DNA of 64,000 nt from positions 1,674,001 through 1,738,000 of the forward strand of contig NC_134681.1 in assembly GCF_024713945.1 (NCBI RefSeq), in the 5' to 3' direction. The position numbers were made by a program, and so were the translations under genes. This DNA comes from Dermatophagoides farinae. Its lineage: Eukaryota; Arthropoda; Arachnida; Sarcoptiformes; Pyroglyphidae. The notes under the pieces were generated by a model. That model had not been told where the DNA came from, did not search any database, and saw only the letters and a program-made list of their open reading frames with translations. The stretch's first letter is position 1. Each line of letters starts with the position of its first letter. Positions 15,047 to 62,510 of this stretch are shown piece by piece.

Positions 15047-15613
15047 ATGTTTCAAATTTTGAAATTGACATTAATATCCTGTATGGTATTGTTGGCAAAT
15101 GCACAAAATCCAATGAATGGTCTTGCAGATAATTCAGCCAATGGTTTACGTGCACTCCCATTACCATTACCATTACCAGTATCACCACCAGTTCCATTTC
15201 CATTACCATTGCCGTTACCGTTACCAATTCCAAGACCAATTCTATCAACAATTCCATTGCCATTGCCATTACGATTGCCGATTCCAGCACCACAAGTTAT
15301 ACCAGTACCAACACCAATAAGATTACCACTTCCAGCACCTGTTCCAACACCAGTTGCAACACCGATTGATCTTCCACTTCCAGTACCACAATTCATACCG
15401 ACACCAGTACCATTGAGAATTCCGCTTCCATTACCAATACCAGCACCAGTACCTGTTACGATGCCATTACCACTTCGTTTACCATTGCCAATGCCAACAG
15501 GCGTTGCAGCACCAGCAGCAGCAACAAATTTATTGGGTCTCGGTGGTGGTTTAGGTGCAATCAATAATTTTGCTGGTTTAGGTTTATTACGTCATGAACA
15601 ACAGAAAAAATAA
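15047..15613 (+). CDS. PLP1: secreted X-Pro repeat protein (single exon)
   Basis: 188 aa. Residues 1-19 form a signal peptide (MFQILKLTLISCMVLLANA, cleavage before QN). From residue 37 to about 160 nearly every second residue is proline (PLPLP, PVP, PTP), arranged as loose 14-18-residue units that each begin with a hydrophobic-Arg-hydrophobic-Pro motif ([18 protein letters not shown]; one unit has IDLPLP). A Gly/Leu/Ala tail ends in GLGLLRHEQQKK. PLP2 (56043-57048) and PLP3 (61379-62510) share the repeat order and the LR-x-E end motif, so they are paralogues. PLP1 lacks the dibasic Lys-Arg sites and the C-terminal extension of the others and has no intron. Such sequence should form extended polyproline-II rods; a structural, cuticular or silk-like secreted role is inference. 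I know of no named family. The antisense Gly/Asn-rich frame is a shadow of the repeat. Confidence 0.88.
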   Translation: MFQILKLTLISCMVLLANAQNPMNGLADNSANGLRALPLPLPLPVSPPVPFPLPLPLPLPIPRPILSTIPLPLPLRLPIPAPQVIPVPTPIRLPLPAPVPTPVATPIDLPLPVPQFIPTPVPLRIPLPLPIPAPVPVTMPLPLRLPLPMPTGVAAPAAATNLLGLGGGLGAINNFAGLGLLRHEQQKK

Positions 15614-18188
15614 TAATATGAAAACAAACAAAAATCCAATATCCTGAAGAAACGACAACAACAACAACAACATCAAAATCAAAATCAAAAAAAAAAAAAA
15701 AAATGAAATTTGAAATTTAAATAATTTATTATATAGATACACACAGGCAAAAAAAAACTTATTCTTCCTTTTTTTTCCAATTCTCTCACTCTTTTTTTTC
15801 GATTAAAATTCTCGATTCAAAGAAAAAAAAACTTTTTTTTATTATTTAAATTCATCATGACCAGATGAACAAAACTAAATGAATGATTTAAATTTTAACA
15901 GCTTGAATCATGCAAAGAAGAAAAAAACGAAGAAAGAGAGAGAGAAAGAAAATTCTTTCACAATCGATGATGATAAACAAAACAAAACAAAAAAAAAACG
16001 AATGAAAAAAAACATGTGTGTGTGTGTGTGTCTCAATCACACAACGAAAACGAAAACGAAAACAGACTTGACAATGAAATAATCATCGATTTTTTTCTTT
16101 GGCTTTTATTTTCGATCATCATCATCATCATCATCATTTGTTCATTCACAAACATAATAACGATGATGATGATGATGATGATGATAATCCAAAGATTGAA
16201 TGGACAACAACAACAGCAGCAATAATTGTTACTTTATTTTGAAATTTTCTTCATTCTCTCTCTCTCTTTCGTTATGTCCATCTATCTATCTCACTTTCAA
16301 CTCTTTAAAAACAAACTACTGGAGATATATTTTCTTCGTTTGTTTGTTTGTTTGGATAAAAAAGAAAAATTTTGTTGCAATTTGTGTGTGCGTGTGCGTG
16401 TATGTTTCTCATCAAACTAATATAGAGATGAGATAGATTTGTCCATGTCCAATTGATGATCGTTTTTCTTTTCTATTTTTTTTTTTTTTTTTTTTTTTTT
16501 TTTTGGTTGGTTCATTGTCATTATCATCATCATCATCATTTTTTTATTATTTGTAGAAAAAAAAAATATAAATCTGATACTTGACATCTTCGATATGTAA
16601 TAATCTCTAATTTTAATGACCTCAAAAAAAAAGAAAAAGATGATGACGATGATTATGGACCTTTATCATCATCATCATCATCATCATGACGAATGATGTG
16701 AACGAATGAAAAAAAATCGAAATTGGATTGATCCAAATAGGTAAAAAAGAATTTAGTGAATAAAAAAGATGAAAAAGAAGAAAAAGGGGAAATATATTTG
16801 TATGTGAGTTGAACCTTGAAATTTTAATTTTGAATTCTATGAAAACAGACATTTATTGTGTCTGTTTGTTTGTGTGTGTGTGTGTGTTTATGATAATTTG
16901 ATTTGATTGATTTGACGATGATGATGATGATGATGATGGACAATAATTTGATTGATTCATATTGAATTGTGTCACATCATCTTCATCATCATTCAATGGA
17001 ATGGAATGGAATTGAAATGGACGTGGATAATTTTGAATCAATTTTCAAATCCATCTTTTGATTTTTTTTTTCGTTCTGATCAAATGTGATTTGTGTGTTT
17101 ATTTTTTTTTTATATGTTGAGAAATATTTACTGTTTTTTTTTCTTCTTGATTGTTGCTTGTTGCTGATATCGAAATTGATTCTGAATTTCTTTTTCAATA
17201 TTTAAATTGATTGATTGATTGAAAATCAAAAAATTGAACGCGAATCTCTATCCTCACATTGACTGGATATTTATGAGAAAAACAAAAACCAGGGTTAGAA
17301 ATGAAACAAAAAATACAACAGAATACAATCATCTGAATATGGTCTAATTACATTGTAAAATAATTAGATCATCAAAATTTGTCGTCTACTGCAATAATAA
17401 AAAAAAACAAACAAACAAACAATGCAATTCAATGCAGATTAGTGATTTTTTTATTCAAATGAAAACAAAACAAAACGAAAAAATCTTTACTTTGATTACA
17501 CACACACTCTCTCTCTCTCCCTTGATGTTTTTGCATCGTAAAATGATGATGATCCATGAAGGAAAAAAAAACATTGCGCAAAAAATAAACGACGATGACG
17601 ACGACGATGATGATGATATAATAATAATTGGAAGACCAAATAATAATTGTCTCCAAAATGGAATCACCACCATCACCATCACCATGATTATTATATAACA
17701 CGGTTGTTGTTTTTTTTTATATATATATAAATTTGATTTGTTGTTGAATGCGCTTGGATTTTCGTTTTTTTTTTCTCCACAAAATGATTACGCAAAGTAA
17801 ATAAAAAAAAAAAATCTACTGAATAAATGTAAAATACCATGGCATACACACACACACGACAATGTTTTTCTTCTTTTTTTCGCAATTTTTGACAATGTTT
17901 TTTTTTTGCTGATATTTATGGTTTAATTTTCTAACAACAACAACAACAACAACAAAAAATCCATTCAATTCATTCATTGTATTTTTGTGATCATTGTGTG
18001 TGTCATCATCATCATCATCATCGATTGAGCGTAGCAAATATATATATGTGTATGGAAAAAAAATCGATTGGAAAAGATTTTTTATTTTCATGTTTTGTTT
18101 TCGTTTTACAGCGACAAAAATTATGCAATTTAAATATCAAATAAATTCTCCGAATGGATTCTTGAATATTTGTTGATTTGAACTGAAA
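15614..18188. other. Intergenic, repeat-rich
   Basis: No gene is visible. It contains a possible ATTAAA polyadenylation signal for PLP1 at 15802-15807, (CAT)n and (GAT)n blocks near 16110-16190, a 29-base T run (16476-16504) and GT tracts. Frames on both strands are repeat translations. Confidence 0.6.
16476..16504. repeat. 29-base poly-T run
   Basis: An uninterrupted run of T. It has no flanking gene body or target-site duplication, so I do not read it as a retrocopy tail. Confidence 0.9.
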
Positions 18189-61378: not shown

Positions 61379-62510
61379 TCAATGATGATGTAATGGTAGA
61401 CCATGATGATGTGCAGGTAATGCCAATGGTAATGGCAATGGTGCTGGTGCTGGTACTGGTGCTGCCACTGGCAATGCTAATGCAACAGGAATTTTCAATT
61501 TATGTTTATGACGAAGCAATGATTCGTCATTCAAATTATCCATAAATTTATCGCCTTCATTTTTTTTTTTTTTTTTAAACAAAAATAAATTCAAATTAAA
61601 TTTTCATTGTTGAATGAATGAATGAATGAATAAAATAATTTTACCATTTTCATTACGTTTTGACATATGACCAAGTTGTTGTTGTTCTAGTGGATCTTCT
61701 TGTTCCTGTTGTGCGGATTCAATGGGTCGACGTTTTTGCATTGTAGGAATATGTTCTTCATCTTAAATGATTGGAAGACAATAAAACAAAAAAATTCATA
61801 TGATTTTTGCAAATTGATTGATTCATTTTATTCTTACTTGGTTCTGAACGCACTTGTTGTCGTTCATCTCGTAAACCAAGAGCACCAAGTCCAGGTAATA
61901 ATGGTGTTGGAACCGGTATTGGTCTTGGCAACGGCAATGGAAGTCTAATTGGTAATGGTAGTGGTACAGGAATAAATTCTGGTACTGGTATTGGTATTCG
62001 AACTGGTACTGGTACTGGACGTAATCGTGGTGTTGGTAATGGTATACGTAATGGTAATGGAACCGGTAATGCCACTGGTTCTGGTACTGGTAATCTCAAT
62101 TGTAATGGTAATGGAACTGGTGTTATTATTGGTTTAGGCAATGGAATTCGAATCGGTAATGGCAATGGAAACGGTAAAGGTGATGGTTCCGGAATTGGTA
62201 ATGGATAACGTTTATTTTTTTCATTTTTCACTAAAAAAAAGATAGTGTCAAAGGAATTTGAATCAAACAATTAATGAATTAATGATTGAAAAAAAAACAA
62301 ATGAATTTCTTTTTTTTTACCTTCCGATTCTGGTTTTTGCGTTTGATCTGGTTGTGATGATTCTGGTGGTGATCGTTTTGTCATTGAGGGCATAGATCGT
62401 CGATGAAAAACCCATGGTTCTTTTCGTGAATCTTTTTCATCATGACCATATACCATTAATACAATGCATGCAAATGCAGCTAATTGTAATAAATGGCCAA
62501 ACATTTTCAT
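61379..62510 (-). CDS. PLP3: secreted X-Pro repeat protein with several dibasic sites (four exons)
   Basis: Exons 62510-62321, 62230-61838, 61761-61645 and 61554-61379; all introns are phase 1 and the frame is open throughout, giving 291 aa. A second Met at residue 3 (62504) would start MFGHLLQL, resembling the MFQILKL and MFEVSKF starts of PLP1 and PLP2, and is my preferred start. Signal peptide to about residue 22 (AFACIVLMVYG). Lys-Arg sites occur at TKRSPP (45-46), NKRYPL (70-71), QKRRP (about 204) and SKRNENG (about 230). X-Pro module at 72-175 has Arg-keyed units LRLPVP, LRIPLP, VRIPIP and IRLPLP, then GLGALGLRDERQQ. Exon 3 is a hydrophilic Q/E-rich spacer. Exon 4 holds RHKHKLKIPVALAL and a second Ala/Leu-Pro tract ending in AHHHGLPLHHH, a possible metal-binding tail. 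The last acceptor is odd: 17 A's then TGAAG, with no pyrimidine tract, so exon 4 is the least certain. Confidence 0.85.

Follow-up and report, generated by a model that had tools for sequence, protein, structure and literature searches.

House dust mites are a leading indoor allergen source, and for many of their predicted proteins no function is known. A stretch of 64,000 nucleotides (nt) of the Dermatophagoides farinae genome (contig NC_134681.1, positions 1,674,001 to 1,738,000; the window) raises the question of whether three reading frames with alternating proline, PLP1, PLP2 and PLP3, are compositional repeats or the genes of a secreted protein family and, if the latter, what kind of protein they encode. 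A preliminary description, made from the DNA letters and their translations, had proposed a three-member family of secreted X-Pro repeat proteins with an ordered architecture; its coordinates for all three genes agreed with the open frames and translations, and alternation and non-Pro similarity beyond shuffled controls (below) supported the proposal itself. We are highly confident that PLP1–3, three paralogous genes within one 47-kb stretch, form a genuine, selected, secreted family; that they are structural proteins of the extracellular matrix, most likely of cuticle type, is on their sequences an even call. PLP1 lies in a single exon, PLP2 (304 amino acids, aa; minus strand) in two exons with one phase-1 intron, and PLP3 (291 aa; minus strand) in four exons with three introns, with the following parts in window coordinates:

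14940..14947, plus strand: TATA-like box of PLP1, about 105–107 nt upstream of the ATG
15047..15613, plus strand: PLP1 coding sequence, single exon, 188 aa (open frame and translation)
15158..15496, plus strand: PLP1 alternating X-Pro domain, aa 38–150, Pro in 45/57 slots
15581..15604, plus strand: PLP1 end motif GLLRHEQQ, downstream of a Gly/Leu stretch
56982..57048, minus strand: PLP2 exon 1, signal-like peptide, phase 1 at its end
56043..56890, minus strand: PLP2 exon 2, starting just upstream of [14 protein letters not shown]
56559..56879, minus strand: PLP2 alternating X-Pro domain, aa 27–133, Pro in 45/54 slots
56496..56519, minus strand: PLP2 end motif ALLRNEQN
56310..56339, minus strand: PLP2 segment [10 protein letters not shown], of KLK type, before the second domain
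about 56043-56282, minus strand: PLP2 second domain, Met-Pro-rich
62321..62510, minus strand: PLP3 exon 1, signal-like peptide and a pro-region bearing RR/KR, phase 1 at its end
61838..62230, minus strand: PLP3 exon 2, carrying [14 protein letters not shown] together with the X-Pro domain
61902..62204, minus strand: PLP3 alternating X-Pro domain, aa 73–173, Pro in 41/51 slots
61857..61880, minus strand: PLP3 end motif LGLRDERQ
61645..61761, minus strand: PLP3 exon 3, tentative (AAG acceptor), an acidic linker with KRR and KR sites
61379..61554, minus strand: PLP3 exon 4, tentative (AAG acceptor), a second Pro-rich part and a His-rich end
61472-61501, minus strand: PLP3 segment KLKIPVALAL, within exon 4

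In the X-Pro domains of PLP1, PLP2 and PLP3 (113, 107 and 101 residues, respectively) Pro keeps to one parity, and the other slot is filled mostly by Leu, Val and Ile. Run scores for the alternation were 21, 27 and 21, respectively, and none of 500 shuffles of each scored above 8. Identical non-Pro columns numbered 23/69 between PLP1 and PLP2, 22/65 between PLP1 and PLP3 and 33/61 between PLP2 and PLP3; with Pro-Pro columns dropped and letters shuffled only inside their own slot class, these matches were equalled in 0, 2–4 and 0 of 2000 shuffles, respectively. Because the non-Pro letters match beyond slot-preserving shuffles, the PLPs are read as paralogues, not merely three Pro-rich frames, and they illustrate how an apparently simple X-Pro repeat can conceal a non-Pro register. 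The ratio of non-synonymous to synonymous substitution (dN/dS; Nei-Gojobori, 100–103 codons) across the Pro domain was 0.42, 0.45 and 0.45 in the three pairwise comparisons, with bootstrap ranges inside 0.25–0.73, values obtained solely on the stretch picked for alternation, a choice that favours a low ratio. In 12 of the 40 Pro-Pro columns of PLP2 and PLP3 the codon differs.

These figures bear on the reading that the frames are functionless CCNNNN repeats and the family a compositional artefact. Tandem repeats of a short hexamer type do occur within the coding sequences of PLP2 and PLP3, and similar lengths are open on the antisense strands, but dN/dS below 1, the conserved non-Pro letters and the in-frame exons with signal-like peptides, common tails and TATA boxes make this reading highly improbable. 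The open antisense frames of the X-Pro domains (15052-15591, minus strand, 179 aa; 61822-62208, plus strand, 128 aa), which are rich in Gly-Asn or Gly-Thr, are a by-product of the CCNNNN codon pairs and are readily mistaken for genes. Among the hexamers are short Met-Pro arrays in the second domain of PLP2 (56172-56282, minus strand; AGGCAT/CGGCAT repeats), and because of these arrays the length of that domain may vary between mites.

Outside the X-Pro domains, resemblance between the three proteins was uneven. The N-terminal hydrophobic, signal-like stretches end in ANA/Q, VMA/Q and VYG/H in PLP1–3 (judged by eye); their similarity went beyond shuffles for PLP1 with PLP2 and PLP1 with PLP3 (0/1000 each) and not for PLP2 with PLP3 (192/1000). 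The shared end motif of the preliminary description was upheld, in that 4 columns are identical in the best 8-mer that the tails have in common (equalled in 6/1000 shuffles) and LR.E, a motif chosen after the fact, occurred in all three tails in 0/20,000 shuffles; pairwise similarity of the tails was weak, being equalled in 52, 43 and 2 of 1000 shuffles. A TATA box stands 93–107 nt upstream of the ATG in 3/3 PLP genes, compared with a background of 546/4000 random 200-nt stretches of the window having one at 60–150; an initiator-like element 25–36 nt from the TATA box was found in only 1/3 of the genes.

For PLP2 and PLP3, a shared phase-1 intron and a shared KLK[LI]PVxL segment had also been claimed, and each claim survives in part. 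Both first introns are indeed in phase 1, but the KR/Y boundary is 8 nt downstream of the intron in PLP2 and 23 nt downstream in PLP3, so the exact position is not common to the two; a shifted acceptor could account for the offset. The linker match containing the KLK segment goes beyond most shuffles (equalled in 7/1000), although the segment is short and its PLP3 copy sits on a tentative exon. Introns 2 and 3 of PLP3 have AAG acceptors, which are rare in animals, and the second Pro-rich domain is therefore less certain in PLP3 than in PLP2; TAG is the acceptor of the two non-PLP introns inspected, one in the Der f 2 gene and one in the fibronectin gene. Nor is an open frame in itself proof of PLP3 exons 3 and 4, since chance alone kept frames of 117 and 176 nt open in 880 and 426 samples, respectively, out of 5000 taken from the window. 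The likeness of KLKIPVALAL in exon 4 to the PLP2 segment is the best support for these last exons; the C-terminal ends of the two proteins also align beyond shuffles (0/1000), through runs of Pro and Leu and not through the KLK segment. PLP3 closes with a His-rich C-terminus (AHHHGLPLHHH) that is absent from PLP1 and PLP2 and is possibly, at a guess, metal- or pH-responsive.

In PLP2 and PLP3, KR or RR pairs stand directly N-terminal of the X-Pro unit and also occur in the linkers. PLP2 has 3 such pairs and PLP3 has 6 (at five sites, one of them KRR) outside the Pro domain, counts equalled in 64/5000 and 8/5000 shuffles, respectively. Units cut by hand (ending at the tail, or for PLP1 the whole chain after the signal peptide) have 28–36% Pro and a net charge of +3.8 to +6.8; those of PLP2 and PLP3, cut after the tail, have 35–36% Pro, an isoelectric point of 11.3–11.8 and net charges of +3.8 and +6.8. 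Cut from KR to KR, the PLP2 unit has 158 aa, 29.7% Pro and a charge of +4.9, and the PLP3 unit 135 aa, 32.6% Pro and +6.9. In PLP3 an acidic linker (net -7.0) bears KR sites, and the N-terminal pro-region is not acidic (net +2.9).

Such features are also those of a precursor of long polypeptides resembling proline-rich antimicrobial peptides (PrAMPs), from which cationic Pro units would be released at KR, and we treat this as the main rival to a structural role. The criteria set out in the part of PMC7736402 drawn on here are at least 25% Pro and a charge of at least +1, with a PRP motif as indicative and activity and a target as essential. Depending on the cut, the PLP units have 28–36% Pro and +3.8 to +6.9, above both sequence thresholds, and each PLP domain carries one PRP motif, so that in Pro content, positive charge and PRP the proteins recall Bac7, abaecin and others; the PLP3 precursor also carries the acidic linker with its KR sites. 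The PLP units are, however, longer and poorer in Arg: they span 121–169 aa against 6–79 residues in 75 PrAMP-like sequences, and Arg makes up 5.7% and 9.6% of the KR-to-KR units against a mean of 19% (both comparisons with figures from the same part of PMC7736402). PLP1, moreover, has no KR/RR site, and on balance we find an antimicrobial role unlikely.

On the structural reading, the PLPs arose by duplication within one chromosomal stretch and, given the signal-like peptides, would be secreted. A furin-type protease would cut PLP2 and PLP3 after KR or RR and free the X-Pro unit, in which alternating Pro, by barring both helix and sheet, may impose an extended rod, some 30 nm long and polyproline-II-like, with Leu, Val and Ile turned outward. 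In keeping with this, an AlphaFold2 model of PLP2 exon 2 with its two paralogues (mean predicted local distance difference test score 56.7, predicted template-modelling score 0.17) suggests no globular fold, with a single helix at aa 195–214 that runs into the KLK segment outside the Pro domain; this is weak evidence since an alignment of three rows is thin. The products are thus pictured as probably rod-like, hydrophobic and weakly cationic; the rods could pack hydrophobically as a stiff filler of the extracellular matrix, with the Gly/Leu-LRxE end as a contact or end-cap.

Pro is replaced at spaced slots, several times by Arg, which might introduce breaks and charge along the rod. Counted from the domain start, Arg occupies Pro slots 19, 27, 35 and 44 in both PLP2 and PLP3, and additionally slot 10 in PLP3; in PLP1, where the alignment is offset by one slot, Arg is found in slots 20, 28, 44 and 54 and Asp in slot 36. 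The four positions common to PLP2 and PLP3 are spaced 16, 16 and 18 residues apart, and two of them are exactly kept in PLP1. Between several of the Arg slots lie hydrophobic breaks (VPEFIP, VPEFVP, VPQFIP). Spacing was most regular in PLP3, at about every eighth residue, and a break period of 4 slots (8 residues) was the strongest of 8 tested in PLP2 (0.0114 of shuffles) and PLP3 (0.0018), fractions that are uncorrected for the 8 periods, that come from paralogues which are not independent and on which our verdict is not based; in PLP1 it was not the strongest (0.055 vs 0.037 for 5 slots). Strict alternation of Arg and hydrophobic breaks was unusual in PLP3 only (163/20,000 shuffles) and ordinary in PLP1 (7514/20,000) and PLP2 (7363/20,000). 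We see a slim chance that mites, and perhaps chelicerates more widely, make protease-released hydrophobic X-Pro rods with a positional code, in which breaks at about every eighth residue, strictly alternating between Arg and hydrophobic in PLP3 and with sites kept between paralogues, would act as a ruler or as docking points when the matrix is assembled in order.

Relatives were sought in the genome of this astigmatid mite (62.4 Mb, 22 contigs). Its group 2 allergen gene bears out the species as D. farinae: from ANNEIKK onward 1 of 121 residues departs from the solved Der f 2, a further mismatch at the first aligned residue being translated intron, and the score for Der f 2 is higher than that for Der p 2 (270.7 vs 247.1 bits). 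With PLP1 as a DNA query (simple repeats skipped), the three PLP loci were the only places found at an expectation value (E) of 0.001 or less. Protein searches at E up to 10 gave 18, 17 and 13 matches for PLP1, PLP2 and PLP3, where counts for large families are lower bounds, with best E values outside the three loci of 5.3e-5, 8.7e-5 and 1.6e-3, respectively. No fourth member was present among the 13 outside loci translated (L015, L016, L017, L020, L021, L022, L024, L037, L038, L045, L048, L052 and L054), which leave aside rows such as L019, L026 and places without a locus. L015, L016, L017 and L045 (E below 0.01) were rejected as proteins of PV/PY type that contain Lys or Tyr, L048 (also below 0.01) as an Ala/Pro/Val protein, L020 and L021 as Leu-Ser simple repeats and L037 and L038 as sequences unlike the PLPs, and L052 had no frame above the length and Pro filter. 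Scattered PV/PY-rich frames with the look of CPLCP/Vajk proteins were observed at L015, L016, L017, L022, L024, L045 and L048 (contigs C4 and C1), several of the PV/PY-rich matches being clustered near C4:6.06-6.08 Mb.

The preliminary description knew of no named family with this layout, in agreement with Pfam, where PLP1 and PLP3 had 0 matches and PLP2 only MSP1_C, at E 0.91 and 8.6 bits against a cut-off of 29.8. A pattern scan of bacterial genomes gave at least 597 stretches; among the 597 listed 1 passed, from a Streptomyces locus with frames generally rich in Pro, Gly or Arg, and it was set aside as compositional; the same scan of viral contigs gave 0 relatives among 211 stretches. The PLP2 unit had one match in a PDB sequence search at E up to 1, the Thr-Pro linkers of 8zvk (1.5e-6), likewise taken as compositional. 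No description of the family appeared in the titles and opening parts of abstracts of open-licence literature on mites, proline-rich and X-Pro proteins, a sample with supplements and most subscription papers outside it, and the frames may well be deposited already as uncharacterised proteins. The term 'undescribed system' goes too far: there are three paralogues and no sign of a multi-component system, and the general kind, a hydrophobic, low-complexity Pro-rich protein with a signal peptide and mostly without Cys, has already been recognised in the related Dermatophagoides pteronyssinus as hypothetical cuticular proteins (in the sections of PMC12105342 consulted).

The PLPs are of the arthropod type of low-complexity, Pro-rich secreted proteins and match no named family exactly. 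The CPLCP family (cuticular proteins of low complexity, proline-rich; Vajk in Drosophila) has, by its published description, a high content of Pro, Val, Lys and Tyr and contains PV and PY pairs (PMC7497268, in the extract available), and the PLPs resemble it in low complexity, in 21–26% Pro over the full chains and in their many PV pairs. PLP1, PLP2 and PLP3 have 9, 18 and 13 PV, 18, 17 and 20 PL and 0 PY pairs, respectively, while the CPLCP-like frames L015, L016, L017 and L045 have 3–5 PY and 0–1 PL pairs, 5–9% Tyr and 15–18% Lys plus His; L024 has 5 PY pairs with 22% Lys plus His and L048 has 2 with 7% (L022 was left out of this comparison). Strict X-Pro alternation is not confined to the PLPs: in L016 it extends over 19 residues, which equals the longest such run in PLP2. 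Neither the Rebers-Riddiford nor the peritrophin-A domain of the CPR and CPAP families was found in the PLPs by Pfam (E up to 1).

A parallel in kind comes from D. pteronyssinus, in which 70 genes for 'hypothetical cuticular proteins' (CPH) were selected by lack of domain annotation, a signal peptide with predicted extracellular location, richness in Pro, Gly or Ala, a general lack of Cys, disorder and also high expression in the top decile, the authors adding that novel chelicerate-specific families very likely still await discovery (PMC12105342, in its cited sections). The PLPs share the lack of domain annotation and the cuticular-protein-like composition, and cuticle is our first choice because 70 proteins were found there by such traits; CPH is, however, a bin and not a family.

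Several points weigh against a structural, cuticle-type role, in addition to the selective basis of the dN/dS values. The PLPs depart from the CPLCP description in PY pairs, Lys and Tyr (Tyr 0–1%, Lys plus His 2–10%), Pfam finds no chitin-binding domain in them, and PLP2 has three Cys residues (aa 239, 267 and 304). The sole dibasic pair of PLP1 is its final KK, and since PLP1 has no KR/RR sites, cleavage would not be a step that all three proteins share. Finally, the traits that suggest cuticle also fit glue, seminal, eggshell or antimicrobial proteins.

For glue, a parallel is offered by pyriform silk, an arachnid cement, in which the spidroin PySp1 has PXPXP stretches with Pro alternating mainly with Ala and Arg (PMC6627382, in the portion cited), and the PLPs could by analogy be an adhesive or cement for eggs, for attachment at moulting or in oral secretion. 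The likeness lies in Pro alternating with another residue, Arg included, in an arachnid secreted material. PySp1, however, has 15 complete repeats of 213 aa and terminal domains at both ends (same portion of PMC6627382), whereas the PLPs are single short chains of 188–304 aa in which X is Leu, Val or Ile, with no long repeats and no spidroin terminal domains by Pfam, and a cement function is accordingly given a small probability.

Seminal fluid or eggshell (chorion) could be a further destination for such a secreted protein. Pyrroline-5-carboxylate reductase carries out the final step in making proline. Of the 7 genes that D. pteronyssinus has for this enzyme, 5 were 66.9- to 212.3-fold up in males compared with females, and some hypothetical cuticular proteins were strongly sex-biased (PMC12105342, cited sections). 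A heavy demand for Pro in a male secretion could, on our own inference, explain the reductase bias; in the text available, the authors of that study attribute it to sperm physiology, and we hold a reproductive role of the PLPs to be rather unlikely. As cuticle-type matrix proteins or otherwise, these secreted proteins with alternating Pro, perhaps released by a protease, are candidate constituents of the cuticle, pellets or secretions that are inhaled.

Two neighbouring genes were also seen. A fibronectin type III gene (57577-60052, minus strand) separates PLP2 from PLP3 and has their orientation; in it the Pfam domain fn3 was above the cut-off in one frame (E 3.9e-7) and below it in the other (7.7e-4), and the gene is useful as a synteny anchor. 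A large gene at about 48008-55643 (plus strand) has WW-like (below the cut-off), PDZ and FERM_M domains in successive frames, taken by assumption as one gene, together with long runs of Gln and Ser, and resembles the FRMPD4/Preso scaffold proteins.

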